DNA of 41,070 bases from positions 1-41,070 of the forward strand of contig JABFSG010000064.1 in assembly GCA_013140715.1 (NCBI GenBank), given 5' to 3'. A model generated the notes under the pieces. It was given only the letters and a program-made list of their open reading frames with translations, searched no databases and was not told the DNA's origin. This document shows positions 956-24,960 of the stretch, in pieces. Made by a program: the position numbers and the translations under genes. The stretch is from Nitrospiraceae bacterium. Lineage in GTDB: Bacteria > Nitrospirota > Nitrospiria > Nitrospirales > Nitrospiraceae. Within the stretch, counting starts at the first letter, position 1; each line of letters begins with the position of its first letter.

Positions 956-2482
956 ATGCGACTATTCGGGATTGAAACGGAGTATGGGATTACCAGGGAA
1001 GACCAGGATTTGGTCGATCCGATCGTGGAATCCATGGAACTGGTGCGAGCCCATCTGACTGCTTCGTTCGAGCGGCGCTGGGACTATGGAGGTGAAGATC
1101 CACACGAAGATGCGAGGGGGTTTCGGGTCTCCGGCCTGCAGCAAGATAAAGAGGAAGATGAGTTCGCCAAGGTCGATGCCCATCGCCCCTTTTCGTTTCA
1201 CGAGATGAAAAGCGATCTGGTTCTCCCGAACGGCGCACGTTTCTATAACGACCATACGCACCCTGAATATTCCACGCCTGAATGTCGCACGCTCTTAGCG
1301 CTTCTTGCCCACGACCGTGCGGGGGAACGGATTGTTCAGCGGGCGGCAGAACGTCGCAACCATGCGCTGGGTGGGTCCCATCTGCAGCTTTACAAGAACA
1401 ATACGGATTTTCACGGGCATAGTTATGGTTGCCACGATAACTATCTCGTCTCACGGTCGATTCCCTTCCCTTCGCTGACTGCTGGGCTCTTGCCATTTCT
1501 TGTCAGCAGGCAGGTCATTGCTGGTGCTGGCAAAGTCGGTGTGGAGGGGCAGGAAAGCGGGTTCGTGCCGGGCCAGTATCAGTTGTCCCAGAGAGCCGAT
1601 TTTATGGAGACGGATCTGAGTGTGGACACGATGCACAACCGGCCGATTCTGAACACGAGGGACGAGCCACACGCGGTTCGGGAAAAATATCGACGGCTCC
1701 ATCTCATCATCGGTGACGCCAATATGTGTGAGTACAGCACGGCGTTGAAAGTCGGGACGACGCAGTTGGCATTGGAGTTGATCGCGCGAAACGCTGTTCC
1801 CGCTCTTGAATTGGAACATCCGGTCACAGCGGTGAAGCAGTTGTCTCGCGATCAGAATTTGAAGGCGACGGTTCGTCTGAAGAACGGCAGCACCATCACG
1901 GGCCTCGACATTCAAGAGCAGTACTACCTTGCGGCCCAGAAGCACTTGGCCGGTCTTGACTGGGAGACCGATTGGATTCTTCAGGAATGGGCAATCACGC
2001 TACGGTTACTTACCGGCGATCGACGGCAACTGATCGGGCGGATTGACTGGGTCACCAAGCTTTGGCTGTTGGAAACCTTTATGCAAGAAGAACGGATTGG
2101 GTGGGATGATCCCTGGCTGGCGAGCTTGGATTTGGAATACCATAATATGAATCCGGACCGCGGGCTCTTCTTGGGGCTCGAGGCGGAAGGGAAGGCCTGG
2201 CGGATGACGTCGGAGCAGGATGTTGAATCGGCTCTGGTGGTCGGTCCGGCCGATACGAGAGCGGGGATTCGAGGCCTCTGCATCAGACGGTTTCCGGATC
2301 AAATCAAGACGATGCAATGGGAACGGATTCAGTTCAGCGGAGGGCTTCTTCCGAGAATATTGGAGATGGGCGATCTCTTTGAGCCGCAGGCGGTGCAAGC
2401 CTGCGCGCAGATATTCGAGAGCGCGGTATCTCCGATGGAGGCGCTGAATACATGGAACAGAGAAAAGGAGTCCCGATCATGA
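956..2482 (+). CDS. dop: Dop-type deamidase/deconjugase of the Pup/UBact system
   Basis: Member of the Dop/PafA carboxylate-amine ligase-like family (508 aa). The N-terminal FGIETEYGI carries the nucleotide/Mg-binding glutamates. An insertion around residues 45-85 matches the position of the Dop-loop that separates Dop from PafA. It is followed by FYNDHTHPEYSTPE, where Asp99 corresponds to the catalytic Asp of Dop and the THPEYS context resembles Dop's HAHPEYS. Later motifs include KNNTDFHGHSYGCHDNYL and NTRDEPH. In actinobacteria Dop deamidates Pup-Gln and removes Pup from substrates. The modifier encoded next door already ends in Glu, so only the deconjugating activity would be needed. The gene ends 4 bp past the start of ubact (2479), so the two are translationally coupled. 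Dop rather than PafA was chosen because of the loop and because a second, loop-less paralogue follows. Confidence 0.88.
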   Translation: MRLFGIETEYGITREDQDLVDPIVESMELVRAHLTASFERRWDYGGEDPHEDARGFRVSGLQQDKEEDEFAKVDAHRPFSFHEMKSDLVLPNGARFYNDHTHPEYSTPECRTLLALLAHDRAGERIVQRAAERRNHALGGSHLQLYKNNTDFHGHSYGCHDNYLVSRSIPFPSLTAGLLPFLVSRQVIAGAGKVGVEGQESGFVPGQYQLSQRADFMETDLSVDTMHNRPILNTRDEPHAVREKYRRLHLIIGDANMCEYSTALKVGTTQLALELIARNAVPALELEHPVTAVKQLSRDQNLKATVRLKNGSTITGLDIQEQYYLAAQKHLAGLDWETDWILQEWAITLRLLTGDRRQLIGRIDWVTKLWLLETFMQEERIGWDDPWLASLDLEYHNMNPDRGLFLGLEAEGKAWRMTSEQDVESALVVGPADTRAGIRGLCIRRFPDQIKTMQWERIQFSGGLLPRILEMGDLFEPQAVQACAQIFESAVSPMEALNTWNREKESRS

Positions 2483-2673
2483 ACTACATCTCAACACCGG
2501 AACGTCGTGAAGGGCCAGGCAATCCGATGCCGAAGGCGCCGAGTCCATCTGACGAGGGCGGTGGGCCGAAACGGCCTGAGACAGGGTCTCCCGATAAAGA
2601 TAATTTGTTGAAGCGTATGCGCAAGGTTGATCCGAAACAGGCGGAACGGTATCGGCAGAGAACGGGAGAATAA
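2479..2673 (+). CDS. ubact: Prokaryotic ubiquitin-like modifier UBact (Pup-like)
   Basis: A 64-residue, highly polar, Gly/Pro-rich and probably disordered protein between dop and prcB. It ends in YRQRTGE. Classical Pup ends in GGQ or GGE; the Arg-Thr-Gly-Glu ending is the type described as UBact in Nitrospirae and other Gram-negative phyla. The C-terminal Glu is the expected site for isopeptide linkage to substrate lysines by PafA without prior deamidation. The C-terminal third (DKDNLLKRMRKVDPKQAERYR) is amphipathic and is the likely ATPase-binding helix. Start: ATG at 2479 follows AAAAGGAG with good spacing and overlaps the dop stop by 4 bp. A longer in-frame start at 2452 lies inside dop and is rejected. 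Confidence 0.9.
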   Translation: MNYISTPERREGPGNPMPKAPSPSDEGGGPKRPETGSPDKDNLLKRMRKVDPKQAERYRQRTGE

Positions 2674-2822: not shown

Positions 2823-3596
2823 ATGGGGATGCAGGGAGATTTTTTTCAGCTATTGAAGGAACAGGGCTATACCCTCGGTGTGCCGACGGCGGTGGGGGCC
2901 GGCCAGGCGCTCACGAATGCTACGACGATATTGGCCTTCAAGTATCGTGATGGTGTGTTGGTGGCTGGAGACCGTCGTGCGACCGCCGGCAATATGGTGA
3001 TGTACGATCGCACGGACAAGGTATTGGAGATCGATCGGCACAGCGTGATGGCGATTGCCGGCGTCCCGGCGACCGCCTACGAAATGGTGCGGATTCTGGA
3101 GCATTCGTTCAAGTACTACCGGAGAACGCAGCTGCAGGAATTGAGTTTCGACGGCAAGCTTCGTTCTGTCTCCAAGCTCTTGAAGGAGAATGTGCCAGCG
3201 GCCTTGGCTGGGACTGGCGCGGTGGTTCCGGTGTTTGCCGGCTACGATATGGAACAGGGTTCCGCGAAAATCTACTTCTACGATATTCTTGGAGCGGAGT
3301 TTGAAGGGGTGGAATATGCTGTGTCCGGGTCCGGTTCTCCCACGATCCGGGGGATCTTGCACTATCTGAATACGTGGGGCGAGCAGCCTCTCAATGCGCT
3401 GCCGCAAGAACAGGCCATAGTGCAGGCCTTACGATTACTCACGAGCGCGGCGGAATTCGATTCGGCGACCGGCGGCGTCAATCGCGAGGCAAGTCTCTAC
3501 CCTGTCGTCAAGTTGATTACGGAGGCCGGCGTGCAGACTGTGCCGGATGCGACATTGAAACCTCTTCATGAATCGCAGGTGGTGCGCTATGTATGA
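2823..3596 (+). CDS. prcB: 20S proteasome beta subunit PrcB
   Basis: Catalytic subunit of the 20S core particle (257 aa, Ntn-hydrolase fold). A propeptide of about 33 residues precedes Thr34 in NATTILAF, the predicted mature N-terminal nucleophile. Counting from it, Asp17 (VAGDRRATAGN) and Lys33 (RTDKVLEID) fall exactly where the family requires them, and SGSGSP matches the conserved active-site serine region. Maturation would be autocatalytic between Ala33 and Thr34. The start at 2823 follows a GGGGAGAAGG ribosome-binding site. The 3' end overlaps prcA by 8 bp, implying coupled synthesis of beta and alpha subunits. The active site looks intact. Confidence 0.96.
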   Translation: MGMQGDFFQLLKEQGYTLGVPTAVGAGQALTNATTILAFKYRDGVLVAGDRRATAGNMVMYDRTDKVLEIDRHSVMAIAGVPATAYEMVRILEHSFKYYRRTQLQELSFDGKLRSVSKLLKENVPAALAGTGAVVPVFAGYDMEQGSAKIYFYDILGAEFEGVEYAVSGSGSPTIRGILHYLNTWGEQPLNALPQEQAIVQALRLLTSAAEFDSATGGVNREASLYPVVKLITEAGVQTVPDATLKPLHESQVVRYV

Positions 3597-4422
3597 AGAA
3601 CCCTATCGCTGGGTGGAAGCAGTCGGCAATCGTCGGCAGTATCTCGACGACCAGTTCAAGCAGGGGAGCCCGGTCGTCGCGTTGACCTATGAAGGAGGCA
3701 TTCTTCTGACGACGGTAAGCAAGGGGACGCCGAAGCTTTACGAGATTTACGACCGGCTGGCCCTGGGCGGGATGGGACATCCCACGGATTTGGAAAAGCT
3801 GCGCTTCAGCCTGCTCGAAATGGCGCATGTCGAAGGTTTCAACCGCTCGCCGTCCGATGTGACGGGATCGAGGCTGGTAAAATACGGTATTGCTCCGGTG
3901 ATCAAGCAGGCCTTCGAGGAAGTGTATAAAGCGCCATTTATCGTGCGTATTCTGGTGGTTGAGTTGGGCTTGAAGCCTGAGAAGGACGTGCTGCTGACGA
4001 TCAACTACGATGGCACGTTTGAGGAAGCGATCGGCTGTGCCACCCTGGCTGCCACCCCCACTGTTCAGACCAAGATGCTGTCCTATCTCAAGGAACAGAT
4101 GCGAGCCACCCAGTCATTGGATCAGGCGTTGAACCTGGCGTTGCGAGCTTGGGCGATCGGTTCCTTGGCGCATCAAGAGGAGGAGGCAGACCAACAGACA
4201 GAGGCCAAGCCATCGGCAAACGGAGGTGCCGACTCCTCGGCTTCGGCAACCCCAAGCAGCGACAGCTTAATGGCACATGTACGGAAGGTTGCCGGCGAAC
4301 GGACGATCGAATGCGCGGTCCTCGAACGGCAGGCTCCCGGCAGTTCCAAGTATCGGTCGATTAAGCAGGCAGACCTTTCGCAGCTCCTGCCAAAGATGTT
4401 TCAATCCGGCGTGGCGAACTGA
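3589..4422 (+). CDS. prcA: 20S proteasome alpha subunit PrcA
   Basis: Non-catalytic outer-ring subunit (277 aa). Residues 1-50 (YEEPYRWVEAVGNRRQYLDD, then VALTYEGGILLTTV) match the N-terminal gate and first strands of PrcA. KLYEIYDRLALGGMG, VTGSRLVKYG and INYDGTFEEA are family-like. The Lys that becomes the docking pocket base in Mycobacterium lies in this region but cannot be assigned with certainty. A low-complexity Gln/Glu/Ala/Ser linker around residues 190-220 precedes a C-terminal extension. The ATG at 3589 overlaps the prcB stop; the upstream in-frame ATG at 3568 is inside prcB and has no RBS. Confidence 0.94.
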   Translation: MYEEPYRWVEAVGNRRQYLDDQFKQGSPVVALTYEGGILLTTVSKGTPKLYEIYDRLALGGMGHPTDLEKLRFSLLEMAHVEGFNRSPSDVTGSRLVKYGIAPVIKQAFEEVYKAPFIVRILVVELGLKPEKDVLLTINYDGTFEEAIGCATLAATPTVQTKMLSYLKEQMRATQSLDQALNLALRAWAIGSLAHQEEEADQQTEAKPSANGGADSSASATPSSDSLMAHVRKVAGERTIECAVLERQAPGSSKYRSIKQADLSQLLPKMFQSGVAN

Positions 4423-4423
4423 G

Positions 4424-5908
4424 ATGTTGAACCGTATTTTCGGACTTGAAACCGAATACGGACTCTTGGTGAATCAAGACCGGCCCGACCACTCTCCCAC
4501 CTGGTTCGCCCACAAGATTCGAGACCATCTGTTTCATGTCCAACGGCGAGGTGTGCTGGATCTGCACCATCGAGGGCACGATGAACCGCCCGGTAATGGA
4601 GGATTTCTCACAAACGCCGGGCGGATGTATCTCGACATGGGGCATCTGGAATGGGCCTCGCCGGAATGTGAATCGCTCACCGATGTGGTCGCAGCCGACC
4701 GCGCCGGCGACCAGCTGCTGCAGGATGCGATTCAAGACCTTGACCTAGCCGACACGGTTTCGTTGATCAAAAACAATGTGGACCATGAAACCGATGCGAC
4801 CTTTGGATCGCATGAGAACTATCTCGTTTCGCGCCGGTTCCCCTTTACCAGGCGCGGCCTCGGACCGTTAGTGACTTTTCTGGTTACCAGGCAGATCTTT
4901 ACGGGTGCCGGACGTGTCGGCATGGCTGGGCCTCAGGACGGGTGGGTTCAGAGAGATCGGCTCATTGTTCCAAGAGGGGCGACCTACCGCCATGCGCCGC
5001 AGCCTGTCCTTCCCTTTCAGATCTCCCAGCGCGCTGACTACATCGTGAACGACTTTTTCGAATGGGTGCAGCAGAATCGCGCTATCGTGAATACCAGAGA
5101 CGAACCGCTGGCGGATCCGAACCAATTCCGCCGGATTCATCTGTTATTGGGCGATTCAAATATGGCCGAGGTGGCAACAGCCTTGAAGCTAGGCACAACG
5201 GGGTTGGTTCTTCAATTGATCGAAGAGGGCCATGCGCCACTCGACCTTGAGATCCATGAGCCGGTTGAAGCCATGCAGGAACTGTCGCAGGATCAGGATC
5301 GACATTGGATCGTTCGGCTGGAATCAGGGAGAACGGTTTCTGCCATCGACATTCAGGAGGCGTTTCTCGCTTCGGCGGAGGCTCATTATCGTGGGCAGGA
5401 CGACGAAACCGATTGGGTGCTCGATCAATGGGCAGCGGTTTTGCAAGATCTCCGCGGAGATTACACCATGCTAGTGGGCCGGGTCGATTGGGCCTCGAAG
5501 TTGTGGCTGCTTGAAACCTTTCGCGAGGCTGAACAGATGAACTGGGAGGATCCGGTTCTGAAAAGTCTCGATCTGGAGTATCACAATCTTCACCAAGGCA
5601 AGGGGCTCTATTTTGGCCTCATGGAAGAAGGGAAGGTTCCACGACTGACTACGGACAAGGCGATTGCCTTGTCGATGGACCATCCGCCACGTAATACCAG
5701 AGCGTTTGGGCGAGGCGAGCTTGTCCGGCATTTGCTGGCCTGTGGATCGCATGATGAATCGGCCGACCTCAAACCAGAAGAGCGGTTTTCTCCTTCGTAT
5801 GTGATCAACTGGTCGATCTTCCAACTCAGTGGCCATGCGCCATTTCCCATGCCTGATCCCTTCAAAACCTACGCGCAGGAGGTGCGCGCCCATCTTCAAA
5901 CAGCCTGA
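4424..5908 (+). CDS. pafA: Pup/UBact-protein ligase PafA
   Basis: Ligase (494 aa) that phosphorylates the C-terminal Glu of the modifier and joins it to a substrate lysine, using ATP. It begins FGLETEYGLL with the family's nucleotide/metal glutamates. RMYLDMGHLEWASPE holds the catalytic Asp (residue 71). SLIKNNVDHE, SHENYLVSR, NTRDEPLADP and LLLGDSNMAE are conserved with the dop product. There is no Dop-loop insertion before the catalytic Asp, which supports PafA. The Mycobacterium motif around this Asp is SHPEY; here it is GHLEW. The start at 4424 is 1 bp after the prcA stop; a long upstream in-frame extension lies over prcA and is rejected. It is the last gene of the proteasome operon. Confidence 0.9.
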   Translation: MLNRIFGLETEYGLLVNQDRPDHSPTWFAHKIRDHLFHVQRRGVLDLHHRGHDEPPGNGGFLTNAGRMYLDMGHLEWASPECESLTDVVAADRAGDQLLQDAIQDLDLADTVSLIKNNVDHETDATFGSHENYLVSRRFPFTRRGLGPLVTFLVTRQIFTGAGRVGMAGPQDGWVQRDRLIVPRGATYRHAPQPVLPFQISQRADYIVNDFFEWVQQNRAIVNTRDEPLADPNQFRRIHLLLGDSNMAEVATALKLGTTGLVLQLIEEGHAPLDLEIHEPVEAMQELSQDQDRHWIVRLESGRTVSAIDIQEAFLASAEAHYRGQDDETDWVLDQWAAVLQDLRGDYTMLVGRVDWASKLWLLETFREAEQMNWEDPVLKSLDLEYHNLHQGKGLYFGLMEEGKVPRLTTDKAIALSMDHPPRNTRAFGRGELVRHLLACGSHDESADLKPEERFSPSYVINWSIFQLSGHAPFPMPDPFKTYAQEVRAHLQTA

Positions 5909-7245: not shown

Positions 7246-7515
7246 CTACACGTCAAAGTCCTCGGTTTCGTCCTCATCTGAGCTTGCATCGGTATTGCCT
7301 GCTGCGACTGATGCGTAATGCTTTGCCCAGGTCAGATAAAGATTTCCGCTGTCCCTCATGGTATCGGCTGCTTTGACGAGTGTCTGGGCTAAGTCAGGGT
7401 CTTTCCCGCTGGCATGAATATCGGCGGCGCGCCGCTCGAGCACTTTCGGGTACTCATGGATCAGACCTGCAATTTCTCGCAGGAGTTCGTCGATGACATT
7501 ATCTTCCGTTTCCAT
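7246..7515 (-). CDS. Small acidic protein of unknown function
   Basis: An 89-residue protein starting METEDNVIDELLREIAG. It is predicted almost wholly helical up to about residue 68, then has a highly acidic tail (SSDEDETEDFDV). No cysteines, signal peptide or membrane segment is seen, and I do not recognise a family. The ATG at 7515 was chosen because GGAGGG lies 7 nt upstream. A longer frame, to 7566, would begin within the terminator hairpin. It lies downstream of, but is separated by that terminator from, the oxidoreductase operon. Confidence 0.7.
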   Translation of the reverse strand: METEDNVIDELLREIAGLIHEYPKVLERRAADIHASGKDPDLAQTLVKAADTMRDSGNLYLTWAKHYASVAAGNTDASSDEDETEDFDV

Positions 7516-7539
7516 CTGATCCCTCCATAACGGCATCAA

Positions 7540-7574
7540 CAAAACACCCCATAGCGCAGGCGCCATGGGGTGTT
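7540..7574 (-). terminator. Terminator of the 2-oxoacid oxidoreductase operon
   Basis: On the minus strand AACACCCCAT (7574-7565) pairs with ATGGGGTGTT (7552-7543), extended inward by GCGC/GCGC, and is followed by TTTTG. It lies 28 bp after the last oxidoreductase gene and ends that operon. Confidence 0.85.
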
Positions 7575-7601: not shown

Positions 7602-7880
7602 TTATCCTTGATAAGCCTGCCCAAGGGCTGCTGACTCACCCTTCTGGGTCATCAGCTTTCCAGTGGCGCTGACCGCCTGCATGATGATGGCGTAATGCTT
7701 GGCCGCGTCGCAGACGACTACGCAGAGGTCACAACCTTTACAGCGGTCAATGGTCACCTCAGCCACCATCTTGGTTGGATTGAGGTCGAGGCAGTTGGCT
7801 TCAGGACAATACATGATGCACAGCCGGCAACCTTTTTTGGCCACGCATTTTTCATCGATGACTTGCGCTACGTTATACAT
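7602..7880 (-). CDS. Ferredoxin-like subunit of 2-oxoacid:ferredoxin oxidoreductase
   Basis: A 92-residue protein with two [4Fe-4S] motifs: Cys12-x5-Cys18-x2-Cys21-x3-Cys25 and Cys47-x2-Cys50-x2-Cys53-x3-Cys57. The first has an enlarged spacing (KCVAKKGCRLC) compared with the usual CxxC start. It would pass electrons between ferredoxin and the TPP-binding core. It is the last gene of a five-gene operon, 22 bp after the gamma subunit. The start at 7880 has GAAGGA upstream; the longer frame to 7976 overlaps the gamma gene. Confidence 0.85.
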   Translation of the reverse strand: MYNVAQVIDEKCVAKKGCRLCIMYCPEANCLDLNPTKMVAEVTIDRCKGCDLCVVVCDAAKHYAIIMQAVSATGKLMTQKGESAALGQAYQG

Positions 7881-7902
7881 GCGAGATGGTCCTTCTCTCT
7901 CG

Positions 7903-8610
7903 TTACGCCGCCATGGCAGGATTGCCGACTCGCAGCTCATACTGATTCTTTTCGGCCCACGCGCTGGCAATGTCATAGGCCGCTTTTACAGTTGCCAGAT
8001 TCTTGGCCAGCAGCATTTCCTTCTTGGCAAATTTTTTCTTGATGGCCTCGTCTAGGGAGGCTGTTCCACCGGAGGCCACGAACTTCTTTCCGAACCGTTC
8101 CTGTAAGGCGAGATCCAGGGATTCCATCGAGACGCACTTAGTGATGCCTGCGACCGACCCGAGCATCGACATATTCGTCGATAGCTCGGTCCCGGCAACT
8201 TCGATTGCGAGCTCAGTGCCTGCGATATAAAACAAGGCGACGTTGAGATCCTTCAGCCGCTGAACATCTTCTTCAGAGAGAAGGGGCTGGTCGGAGTTGA
8301 TAATGACGAGGCCGCCTTCCTTCACGCCGGAATAGAAGGGCATCGTATAGCTTTTCCCCATGGTGATGACCTGGGGGTGAAAGACCTGAATGACGTCGGG
8401 AAATACCAACTCACCACGGTCGTAGATCCGTTCGATACCGATCCGACAATAGCTCTCCGCCGGTGCCATTCGCTTCTCGGCGCCGAAGAAAGGATTGGAT
8501 ATCGAAAATTTTCCATCACGGTTGGCAGCCATGGCCAGGACATGTGCGGCGGTAACGGCGCCCTGTCCGCCTAATCCTGACATTCGGACGTTGAGTCTTT
8601 TCTTAATCAT
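7903..8610 (-). CDS. porG: 2-oxoacid:ferredoxin oxidoreductase, gamma subunit
   Basis: This 235-aa protein has the gamma-domain signature of pyruvate/2-oxoacid oxidoreductases: RMSGLGGQGAVTAAHVLA near the N-terminus, then NPFFGAEKRMAPAESYCRI and a strand-rich FPDVIQVFHPQ region. The domain contributes to the CoA-binding part of the complex. The start at 8610 follows GGAGAGACG. It is directly downstream of the beta subunit (23-bp gap). Pyruvate and 2-oxoglutarate versions cannot be separated by eye, so the por symbol is provisional. Confidence 0.88.
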   Translation of the reverse strand: MIKKRLNVRMSGLGGQGAVTAAHVLAMAANRDGKFSISNPFFGAEKRMAPAESYCRIGIERIYDRGELVFPDVIQVFHPQVITMGKSYTMPFYSGVKEGGLVIINSDQPLLSEEDVQRLKDLNVALFYIAGTELAIEVAGTELSTNMSMLGSVAGITKCVSMESLDLALQERFGKKFVASGGTASLDEAIKKKFAKKEMLLAKNLATVKAAYDIASAWAEKNQYELRVGNPAMAA

Positions 8611-8633
8611 GGTCGTCTCTCCCGAGAATCGGT

Positions 8634-9539
8634 TTAGGCCCCTTGAGCGGCAAGCTGCTTCGCAGCGGCCTTCTTTTCCTTGTCCTTGGCAGCGATCTCT
8701 GCCAAGAGTTCCTTGGCTGGCTCGCTGATATATTCCTTATAGGCGAATCGCTCGGTCGGTTTTTCCGAGTCCCGCATTTCCTGGAGCCCTTCCATGCTGT
8801 TCTTCCCGATTTCAAGAATACAAGGCGTGTAGAGCTGAAGGTAGGTAGGGCCGATTTCGCGCGAGATCATGACGGCGTTACGGACCACCTTCTCAACCAG
8901 AGATGGTTTGCTCACGGTGCATTGGACCACGTAATGACAGCCTGATTCCCGAGCGATTTCCGGCAGCCTGACCTTGTCGAAAAGCTTCCCGACCGGCGCC
9001 ATCTTGGCGACGAACCCCTTCTGCATCAGACCGCTCTCCTGTCCACCGGTATTAGCGTACAGTTCGTTATCGAAGCAGATCGTGGTGAACTTCTCCTGGC
9101 GGAACCAGGCTTGGAGCGTCATGTCGAGGCCGATATCGACGGTGGCGCCGTCGCCGGCGAGCACAACCACATCTTTTGTCCGGCCTGGGAAGCGGACGCT
9201 TAAGGCACGCTTTAAGCCGGAGGCGATGGCATTTTGGTTACCGAAGAGGGAGTGAATGTTATGCACAGCCACCATGGGGAACACCAGGCTGGTACAGCCG
9301 GTAGAGCCGACCATGACTGTGTCTTCAGGGTTCGGCAATGAGGCCAAGATGTACCGGAAGGCCATGGATTCCGGGCAGCCGGCGCAGAGGGAGTGCTGCT
9401 CGATCAGTTCCTTACTGTTCCCGATATCCTTCCAGCCCCGGTCCTCCTTACCATAGGTCGCGCTCTTGACCAGGTCCTGGTAGTCGGACGGCATAATGTC
9501 GTATAGGTCTTCCGAAATCTTGATACGTTCCTTGCTCAT
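8634..9539 (-). CDS. porB: 2-oxoacid:ferredoxin oxidoreductase, beta (TPP) subunit
   Basis: Thiamine-diphosphate-binding catalytic subunit (301 aa). HSLCAGCPESMAFR carries Cys52 and Cys55, and Cys82 in GSTGCTS and Cys211 are candidates to complete a [4Fe-4S] site. The TPP/Mg motif is LAGDGATVDIGL (Asp130), with the companion FDNELYANTGGQESG. The C-terminus is a Lys/Ala-rich helix. The start at 9539 has GGAGG upstream. With the alpha subunit it would make or use CoA thioesters through reduced ferredoxin, a key step of the reductive TCA cycle. Confidence 0.92.
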   Translation of the reverse strand: MSKERIKISEDLYDIMPSDYQDLVKSATYGKEDRGWKDIGNSKELIEQHSLCAGCPESMAFRYILASLPNPEDTVMVGSTGCTSLVFPMVAVHNIHSLFGNQNAIASGLKRALSVRFPGRTKDVVVLAGDGATVDIGLDMTLQAWFRQEKFTTICFDNELYANTGGQESGLMQKGFVAKMAPVGKLFDKVRLPEIARESGCHYVVQCTVSKPSLVEKVVRNAVMISREIGPTYLQLYTPCILEIGKNSMEGLQEMRDSEKPTERFAYKEYISEPAKELLAEIAAKDKEKKAAAKQLAAQGA

Positions 9540-9600
9540 AATGGCCTCCTCGGTGCGTATGTCTTATTCTAGGTGTTCAGTTTTTACTGCTCAGATGCGA

Positions 9601-10812
9601 TCAACTGCCACGACCAGCCAACGACATGGTGCGCATGCCGAGCAAGGTTTTTATTTCGGAGACAATAATTTCCGGTGGCATCGTCATGCCTCCGCAGACA
9701 TGCGGGCCAGCATTCACACGCTCGCTGTTCGGGATGGTAGCTTTAATCTCTTTTGCCAGCCAGCCGGTCACATTAAACTCCGGGACGATAATGTGCTTGG
9801 CGTTTTTTGTCGCTTCACGGATTTCCTCGCCCGGCCAGGGCCGCAAGGACTTGATCTTAACCAGACCGCAACGGATACCTTCGTCCTCAAGGAGGCGGAT
9901 GGCTTCGCGACCCTGAGACACCGCTGTGCCAGAGGCGACGATGAGGACCTCGGCATCGGCATTTTCTGTCTCGATCAACCCGTTTATCCACTTGATGGTG
10001 TGTTTGCGTGACCGCTCCACTGCCGCCCAGACTTCTTGCTGCCAGGAGGCATGGGTAGCATAGCTGATGTAGTTGCTCTTCATGACAAACGGATCGCGCA
10101 TCATCCGGACCGGTGGGCATTCCATGTCCATGCAGGGAACCGGTGAGCGATAGGGGTCGTAAGGAGGCAGGCACATGTCCGCTGGTGTGAGATTGACGAC
10201 ATCTTTGGTGTGTGTCACGAAGAATCCGTCGCAACAGAGTGCCAGGGGGAGATGCACGTCGGGCTCTTCCGATACCATGTAGCCTTTGAGGATCCAATCG
10301 AAAAAGTCTTGTGCGGTTTCCGCATGCCAGACGAGCATGCCGGTGTTGAGAAGATACGCAATCTCGAGTGTGTCCGGCTGAATCGACAGCGGCGAGTTGA
10401 TGCCGCGGCAGGTGACGATCATTTGAATCGGCAACCGTGCGCCGGACCACATCGGGAAGTTTTCCATCGCGCGCATCGTGCCTGGTCCTGCAGTCGTCGT
10501 AAACACACGAGCTCCGCCAAATGCTGCTCCCGCGCACTGGGACATCACCGCGAATTCGCTTTCACCGCGGAAGTAGTCACCGATGTAACCTTCGGCAAAG
10601 AGCTCGCCGATCAGGGCGGCCGCTTCGCTCTGCGGTGTAATCGGGTACGCGATCATGACGTCGCAGCTGGCCCGCCGGAGGGCTTCCTTGATGACCTCGC
10701 TGCCGGTGAAGAACGAAGGCGTGCGTGGCGCGTTGTTCATCATCTCCCAGGTGTCGGTAAAGGTCTGCCCTTTTTTATTCTTAGTGCCGATGACTGAGTG
10801 TGTGTCTGCCAT
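9601..10812 (-). CDS. porA: 2-oxoacid:ferredoxin oxidoreductase, alpha subunit
   Basis: This 403-aa alpha subunit has the pyrimidine-binding domain I signature AYPITPQSEAA, followed by GESEFAVMSQCAGAAFGGA and FTTTAGPGTM, and a later transketolase C-like domain (VLIVASGTAVSQGREA). It pairs with the beta subunit to form the active site. The ATG at 10812 is preferred over the GTG at 10818 because the AGGAG ribosome-binding site lies 8 nt before it. It is the second gene of the operon, 61 bp before beta. Confidence 0.92.
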   Translation of the reverse strand: MADTHSVIGTKNKKGQTFTDTWEMMNNAPRTPSFFTGSEVIKEALRRASCDVMIAYPITPQSEAAALIGELFAEGYIGDYFRGESEFAVMSQCAGAAFGGARVFTTTAGPGTMRAMENFPMWSGARLPIQMIVTCRGINSPLSIQPDTLEIAYLLNTGMLVWHAETAQDFFDWILKGYMVSEEPDVHLPLALCCDGFFVTHTKDVVNLTPADMCLPPYDPYRSPVPCMDMECPPVRMMRDPFVMKSNYISYATHASWQQEVWAAVERSRKHTIKWINGLIETENADAEVLIVASGTAVSQGREAIRLLEDEGIRCGLVKIKSLRPWPGEEIREATKNAKHIIVPEFNVTGWLAKEIKATIPNSERVNAGPHVCGGMTMPPEIIVSEIKTLLGMRTMSLAGRGS

Positions 10813-10857
10813 GGTCACGCTCCTTTCACTGTCGTCAGAGCCTCAAGCGACTTCGCG

Positions 10858-11493
10858 TTAATTCGAGGCTCCGCTCTTGGCTGACGTCAGCCGTGGTTGG
10901 ACTGTCCCTTTCAATTTCTTCACCCATTCGGCCAGTTTCATGATCTTTTCGACCGATGCGTCGCGGAACGATAGCATGGCATCTTCATGGCCGGCTTGAG
11001 CGCACATCGCAATGGTATAACAAGAGGTGCCGCCCCGAATGATCTTGAGCGACAAATTTGCCTGATGGCAGTGCACTCCGATGAACATGCAGCAGTCGAT
11101 TTTATTATGCCAGATGGTCAGATTCGGGTGGTTGGGATTAATTTCAACTTCAGGATTGATCTTAGGGTACTTGGGGCGGTAGTCCGGCATCGGGATCAGC
11201 ATGGGCGTTTGCCCTGGCTGCACACATTCCTTGAGGGTGTTGTACAGGTGGCGGATGGCCGTGGCCTTCTTGGCCGCTTTTTCGTTCCAGGCCCACAATA
11301 CTAGGGGACCAGGGAAGAGCGTTGGGACCCTGGCCATGAGGAATTGCTTTGCCGCCTCCTCGTAGGCCTTTTCCTCTGGGACGATGACACCGTTGATATG
11401 AGCTTCCCCAGGGTTTGGCAAGCAAATACCCATGCTTGCCGCCGATGGAGGAAGAAAATGTTCCGGACCTGGAAGGACACGATACTGAGTCAT
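10858..11493 (-). CDS. Accessory (epsilon-type) subunit of the 2-oxoacid:ferredoxin oxidoreductase
   Basis: First gene of the operon (211 aa), 45 bp upstream of alpha. The gene order (this protein, alpha, beta, gamma, ferredoxin) equals the five-subunit oxidoreductases known from Hydrogenobacter and Nitrospira. The body contains PTLFPGPLVLWAWNEKAAKK, a CCMFIGVHCHQANLSLKI segment with three cysteines, and GGTSCYTIAMCAQAGHEDAM; this resembles a small carbon-monoxide-dehydrogenase-associated fold. Function beyond being a subunit is unknown. GGAG lies 11 nt before the start at 11493. Confidence 0.75.
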   Translation of the reverse strand: MTQYRVLPGPEHFLPPSAASMGICLPNPGEAHINGVIVPEEKAYEEAAKQFLMARVPTLFPGPLVLWAWNEKAAKKATAIRHLYNTLKECVQPGQTPMLIPMPDYRPKYPKINPEVEINPNHPNLTIWHNKIDCCMFIGVHCHQANLSLKIIRGGTSCYTIAMCAQAGHEDAMLSFRDASVEKIMKLAEWVKKLKGTVQPRLTSAKSGASN

Positions 11494-22382: not shown

Positions 22383-22728
22383 CAGGATGCTGAAAAAGGC
22401 CGCCAGCAGGGGGGAAGGAGTGGCCAGGTGTTCCTCTTGCTCGCAGAACGCGCACGATATAAGAATGTGCTCGTTTGATGCGCGCAGTAAAGGGCAGCCT
22501 TGGCCACTCCTTCAACGAGGGGTACTGTGAATTTGGAAGGCCCTCGTCCGGGCGAATGGCACGTTTCGAGGAATCGATTGCGTAGCCAGTGGAGGGTAGG
22601 GTGGGTGAAAAATATCTGCCAATGGATGAGTGGGTGAGAATGTCGCGCGCAGTTGGGATCATCCCAGCCACCCCTTAATAGGCAATAGCTCGCTGCGGTC
22701 TTGCTGAACGGCCTTTTTGAGCATCCTG
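22383..22728. repeat. 346-bp dispersed repeat element with CAGGATGCT termini (copy A)
   Basis: Bounded by inverted repeats CAGGATGCTGAAAAAGGCCG (22383-22402) and CGGCCTTTTTGAGCATCCTG (22709-22728), 19 of 20 matching. An inner perfect 10-bp inverted repeat, GGAGTGGCCA (22417-22426) with TGGCCACTCC (22501-22510), encloses TGCTCGCAGAACGCGCACGA. No transposase reading frame is inside. A related copy lies at 24663-24960 and the inner module also at 2684-2774. It looks like a non-autonomous, MITE-like element. The following 22729-22802 holds no recognisable feature. Confidence 0.8.
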
Positions 22729-24662: not shown

Positions 24663-24960
24663 CAGGATGCTGAAAAAGTCTGCCAGCAGGGAGAGTGATG
24701 GCCCAGTGAGTCCCCTATGCTCGCGCAATGCGCGGTCTCAGAAAGATATGAAGGGAGCCGCCGAACCGTCCTTTTTGCTCGCAGAACGCGCACGATGGAA
24801 CCGTGCTCGTTCGATGCGCGCAGTGAAGGACAGTCCGGCAACTCCCTTGGGCGAGACGGTGTGATGGTGCAGAAAGGGAATCAAGAGATCCTCGCCAGGG
24901 TGAATGGCGCGTCCCCGCGCGTCAGGGGTGGGTGAGGAGTCTGCCTTTTTGAGCATCCTG
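24663..24960. repeat. 298-bp dispersed repeat element with CAGGATGCT termini (copy B)
   Basis: The left end is CAGGATGCTGAAAAAGTCTG (24663-24682) and the right end is GTCTGCCTTTTTGAGCATCC plus TG (ending 24960); the reverse complement gives CAGGATGCTCAAAAAGGC. It contains two TGCTCGC..GCGC modules, near 24718-24738 and 24777-24823; the latter is nearly identical to copy A. It sits between HEAT proteins 4 and 5. The remaining 24961-25070 holds no gene; AAGGA at about 25060 serves the next start. Confidence 0.8.

Follow-up and report, generated by a model that had tools for sequence, protein, structure and literature searches.

A UBact–proteasome operon beside a canonical Pup system in a Nitrospira-type genome

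Nitrospira oxidise nitrite in soils and in water treatment, and to our knowledge their regulated protein turnover has been little studied. The name UBact is said to have been given by Lehmann, Udasin, Livneh and Ciechanover in a 2017 paper (BBRC 483:946). Experimental work on UBact was not found in the open literature that was searched. The window analysed here, a stretch of 41,070 nucleotides from a Nitrospira-type genome of the Nitrospirota, encodes a system that shares with the UBact of Lehmann 2017 matches to both profile models, the RTGE tail, an operon of dop, pafA, prcB and prcA with an Arc-type ATPase, and a Gram-negative host of the Nitrospirae. No feature of the window system excludes membership. 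The variation between E and Q and the charge relation between UBact and Pup, both described below, are results of the present analysis, and they may or may not be in Lehmann 2017.

The UBact system resembles the actinobacterial Pup–proteasome in gene order, in its homologous ligase, depupylase, ATPase and 20S subunits, and in the C-terminal Glu or Gln that follows a Gly. It differs in having TG in place of GG, a basic tail in place of an acidic one, an acidic enzyme segment, and an ATPase without a GQYL-type tail. The Corynebacterium glutamicum Pup is like the window's tag in its encoded C-terminal Glu, with dop kept for removal only, but C. glutamicum has a single system, an acidic tail and a GGE end.

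Duplicated pupylation loci, L1 and L2, have been described in Leptospirillum ferrooxidans by Barandun, Delley and Weber-Ban in 2012 (PMC3511204), with no terminal GGE in the L2 "Pup". The two cases are alike in having two complete systems per genome, in the same gene context and with very different sequences, and the L2 "Pup" is very probably UBact. They differ in that pup lies outside its operon in Nitrospira and in the other members of its order. Given the 2012 report, the coexistence of two systems is itself not new. An account of specificity was not found in the accessible part of the paper, and the new content here is the pairing of tags with enzymes across the phylum and a testable account of how the systems may be separated, in which we infer a charge swap.

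The UBact gene and its operon

The window operon reads Arc/Mpa–dop–UBact–prcB–prcA–pafA on the forward strand. The original prediction had placed a Pup-like modifier with an RTGE end, of the UBact type of Nitrospirae, at 2479–2673, together with dop, pafA, prcA and prcB, and the profile searches bear out the tag, its type and its neighbours. The ORF at 2479–2673 (+) encodes 64 aa (MNYISTPERREGPGNPMPKAPSPSDEGGGPKRPETGSPDKDNLLKRMRKVDPKQAERYRQRTGE*) and clears the UBact models of Pfam (PF20513, 76.5 bits, cut-off 27.8) and NCBIfam (NF033388, 81.8 bits, cut-off 35) by a wide margin. It ends in RTGE, as its relatives end in RTGE or RTGQ, and its locus encodes Dop and PafA homologues, 20S subunits and an Arc-type ATPase. 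In the Pfam search (E <= 0.01) this protein did not match the Pup model PF05639, and the GG[EQ] end of Pup is absent. The product is thus UBact, already known as a kind, the ubiquitin-like tag of nitrite-oxidising Nitrospira. The nearest named relatives are Nitrospira, and the cultured N. moscoviensis and Ca. N. defluvii also have UBact. The ORF is far beyond chance, because UBact is present in 115 of the 147 genomes analysed from this family and the tail V-D-P-x-Q-x-E-R-Y-R-Q-R-T-G is invariant in 18 aligned orthologues spanning the phylum. Its ATG overlaps the dop stop codon (ATGA at 2479–2482).

The gene upstream, dop of the UBact system (DopU, a depupylase/deamidase homologue, 956–2482, +), matches PF03136 with 542.5 bits and falls just under the TIGR03688 cut-off (453.9 vs 492.3 bits). 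It has the Pup_ligase fold, the catalytic Asp, a Dop-loop with Trp47 and the alpha-loop Thr217, and its conserved residues are E8, E10, W47, R90, Y92, D94, R205, R227, H241 and W453 (A. cellulolyticus numbering). The putative UBact ligase gene pafA (PafAU, 4424–5908, +; PF03136, 430.7 bits) scores below the TIGR03686 cut-off (324.3 vs 551.3), and Dop and PafA profiles score it about equally. It shows the Pup_ligase fold without a Dop-loop and the catalytic Asp71, equivalent to D64 of C. glutamicum, and the best fold match of its AlphaFold model (pLDDT 83.3) is the PafA–Pup crystal structure 4bjr (TM 0.80).

Between these genes lie those of the two 20S subunits. The beta subunit gene prcB (2823–3596, +; TIGR03690, 170.4 bits) has an intact Thr1/Asp17/Lys33, which the beta subunits of both the UBact and the Pup systems keep (T/D/K in 71 of 73 matches). 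The alpha subunit gene prcA (3568–4422, +, start perhaps at 3589) encodes a divergent protein with a C-terminal extension (TIGR03691, 78.5 bits; PF00227, 29 bits). This subunit exceeds its Pup-system counterpart by ~54 residues and ranks among the operon's least conserved proteins. The proteasomal ATPase of Arc/Mpa type (ArcU) is represented by its C-terminal part (4–852, +; TIGR03689, 259.6 bits over positions 251–509 of 512). Its 5' part lies beyond the contig start, and a full-length orthologue was read in another locus (L068).

The terminal residue of UBact varies among species. Of 77 named Nitrospira UBact loci, 54 end in E and 23 in Q (~30% Gln), and the UBact proteins of two loci (L054 and L062) are identical except for this residue (E vs Q). 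In the 16 genomes where both tags were read, the UBact/Pup ends are E/E in 10, Q/E in 3, E/Q in 2 and Q/Q in 1; therefore, the two ends vary independently. The suggestion that Dop would be needed only for tag removal holds for the present genome, in which the encoded Glu requires no deamidation. This reasoning is also accepted for C. glutamicum, where the encoded C-terminal Glu makes deamidation unnecessary (PMC3511204). The suggestion does not extend to the family, since the RTGQ ends in 23 of 77 loci mean that in many species Dop has to be capable of deamidation. In DopU the catalytic residues that were checked are retained, and so are the Trp of the Dop-loop and the Thr of the alpha-loop.

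A second system and the pairing of tags with enzymes

The same genome has a second complete canonical Pup system, whose pup is detached from its operon. Contig C16 carries ARC (end TGHYL), dop, prcB, prcA and pafA, with no tag gene between dop and prcB. The single Pup, the sole PF05639 match of the genome (77.5 bits, end YVQKGGE), is encoded on contig C36 by an orphan gene at ~7336–7540 of locus L067 (G000:C36), flanked by recJ and a gene for a membrane pyrophosphatase. In relatives at the level of class and phylum, pup sits inside a C16-type operon and adjoins the dop of the Pup system (dopP); it moved away within the order. In many relatives the distance between pup and dopP is ~46–50 kb. 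Because a second complete system is present, a proteome search for UBact must separate two tags.

The distribution of the two systems shows which enzymes go with which tag. Among the 147 family genomes, Pup is present in 132, UBact in 115 and both in 105. The genome of the window has four Pup_ligase genes, and at least four ligase/Dop genes are found in 100 of the 115 UBact-positive genomes vs 2 of the 32 UBact-negative ones (Fisher p 8e-18, in which independence is overstated as the genomes are related). The two UBact-negative exceptions (G071 and G112) are explained as contig breaks or Ns at UBact. The UBact-only genomes G163 (a single contig) and G063 lack Pup and contain just the window-type (U) Dop/PafA pair, and the Pup-only genomes G217 (a single contig) and G203 lack UBact and contain just the other (P) pair. 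At the level of loci, the full U set is present in 20 of 20 UBact loci of the family and the full P set in 20 of 20 P loci. Further out, 17 of 20 UBact loci have the full U gene set in order, and one remaining locus is cut by a contig end. Co-occurrence thus shows that UBact pairs with the enzymes of the window and Pup with the other set. The UBact-only loci (L134 of G163 and L162 of G063) are natural material for the study of UBact without Pup.

Charge inversion and a shared enzyme segment

The two tags are opposite in charge. The 27 residues before the last carry a net charge of +5 in 49 of 51 UBacts, including that of the window, and of -4 to -6 in 31 of 31 Pups. The enzymes of the two systems were compared in an alignment of 26 DopU, 26 PafAU, 21 DopP, 21 PafAP and two PDB sequences. 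Where both enzymes of one system shift charge, 20 columns shift in the same direction vs 2 in opposite directions, and 12 vs 0 at a stricter threshold, counts in which neither columns nor sequences are independent. For example, Glu at PafAU E370/DopU E379 stands against Lys at PafAP K346/DopP K377, and Arg/Lys at PafAU 353/DopU 362 against Glu in the P set. Concordance in exact state alone is not significant (5 vs 1, p 0.22).

The concordant columns concentrate in a segment of ~110 residues that corresponds to C. glutamicum PafA 290–400. In DopU it spans approximately residues 317–417 (1904–2206, +) and in PafAU approximately residues 308–408 (5345–5647, +). The mean net charge of the segment is -10.8 in DopU and -10.1 in PafAU vs -1.6 in DopP and -4.5 in PafAP. 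A sliding comparison along the enzymes gives one clear peak, at 349–388. A tree of the segment splits the systems with support of 99 and rejects a Dop clade (AU p 8e-8), p-values here being optimistic because the segment was chosen after the charge columns had been seen. Outside the segment, the tree splits Dop from PafA with a moderate support of 93.6, and a U clade is not rejected there (p 0.19); given this support, a different history of the Dop/PafA paralogues is possible. In a first quick enzyme tree DopU and PafAU had been joined, and splitting by region showed that this signal came mainly from one segment.

The tag is the ligand that Dop and PafA have in common within a system and that differs between systems, and on this ground the segment is a predicted modifier-binding region. 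A listing of the residues that contact Pup in the groove was not found in the open literature. The signature of DopU and PafAU could also have arisen by gene conversion between the neighbouring genes and not by adaptation to the tag, an explanation that we regard as unlikely but worth keeping in view. It would account for the interleaving of Dop and PafA in the segment tree and for the Dop–PafA identity of the U set, 0.45 in the segment and 0.34 in the rest. However, the segment identity of Dop and PafA is 0.479 within the same genome, hardly above the 0.466 between genomes of a lineage or the 0.442 between other lineages, and therefore there is no sign of recent conversion, and the reversal of charge agrees with the tag.

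Proposed working of the two systems

By analogy with pupylation, PafAU would join the C-terminal Glu of UBact to lysines of target proteins, with prior deamidation by DopU in species whose tag ends in Q. DopU would also remove UBact from targets, and ArcU would feed tagged proteins to a dedicated 20S proteasome of PrcAU and PrcBU. The canonical system would work in parallel with ArcP, DopP, PrcBP, PrcAP and PafAP from contig C16 and the pup product from contig C36. The opposite charges of the tags (basic UBact tail, acidic Pup tail) probably keep the systems apart, with the modifier-binding segments of both enzymes in each system having changed charge to match the tag, and the different C-terminal tails of the two ATPases may distinguish the systems as well. 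It is probable that a complete pupylation-like UBact–proteasome system works beside the Pup system and that charge separates them. The fuller proposal has about an even chance of being right: the systems would be kept orthogonal, with little cross-talk, by reciprocal inversion of tag and groove charge, co-adaptation of a shared segment and different docking tails, as a natural two-code tagging. If true, it would offer natural orthogonal tag–ligase pairs of use in proximity labelling and in targeted degradation, and it would be an example of co-adaptation by two homologous enzymes to a ligand that they share. The analysis assigns cognate enzymes to UBact, finds that one cell usually keeps two tag–proteasome systems, and provides a residue-level hypothesis for their separation.

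A single network with cross-talk, in which each enzyme pair works with either tag and the duplicates serve dosage or regulation, is quite improbable. All checked catalytic residues are common to the Dop and PafA of both sets, as such a network would allow, and some modifiers occur where their enzyme pair was not found (G065 and G105, for example, have Pup and two enzymes only), which assembly gaps can explain. Against it, single-system genomes keep matched sets, the tags are inverted in charge, the enzyme segments are system-specific, and the terminal E/Q states vary independently.

The penultimate Tyr of the ATPase tail docks Mpa to the proteasome (PMC8755798). It is present in 37 of 37 ArcP and in 0 of 38 ArcU, whose C-termini are of the QII, II or AIE kind (...RLINQII in the window) and not of the GHYL, GQYL or HbYX type. 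The coupling of ArcU to the 20S particle is therefore uncertain, and the tail indicates either that docking takes another form or that the tie to degradation is looser. A regulatory tag that marks or unfolds its targets without degrading them, ArcU having lost its docking tail, is accordingly conceivable though doubtful. A degradation-independent role for Pup has been suggested in proteasome-less actinobacteria (PMC3511204). In the UBact operon, however, prcB and prcA are kept throughout the phylum and the active site of the beta subunit is intact, and the altered ArcU tail may fit the altered alpha subunit. It is hardly credible that UBact is a remnant that has decayed or lost its function next to a Pup system that works, given that the UBact tail and the catalytic residues are invariant across the phylum and that some genomes depend on the UBact set and no other.

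Charge matching was also considered for the coil regions of the ATPases and is unsupported, the net charges of the two hardly differing (-1.5 vs -0.7). The N-terminal coil region is shorter in the ArcU genes of loci L068–L087 and L123–L142.

Scans of the window gave no promoter or terminator signal above chance, and no tRNA was found in it. Genes resembling those of a multi-subunit 2-oxoacid:ferredoxin oxidoreductase, judged from ORF translations only, adjoin the operon at 7602–11493 (-). The spacer between UBact and prcB (2671–2822) folds with -73.1 kcal/mol (z -5.9) and holds a REP/MITE-like palindromic repeat (2683–2775, +), identified by its fold and its genome matches. A specific RNA element after UBact was ruled out, as the hairpin belongs to a repeat that is dispersed over the genome (43 matches), including further copies in the window near 22432–22493 and 24768–24837. 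In other Nitrospira, the same spacer holds unrelated hairpins of varied size.
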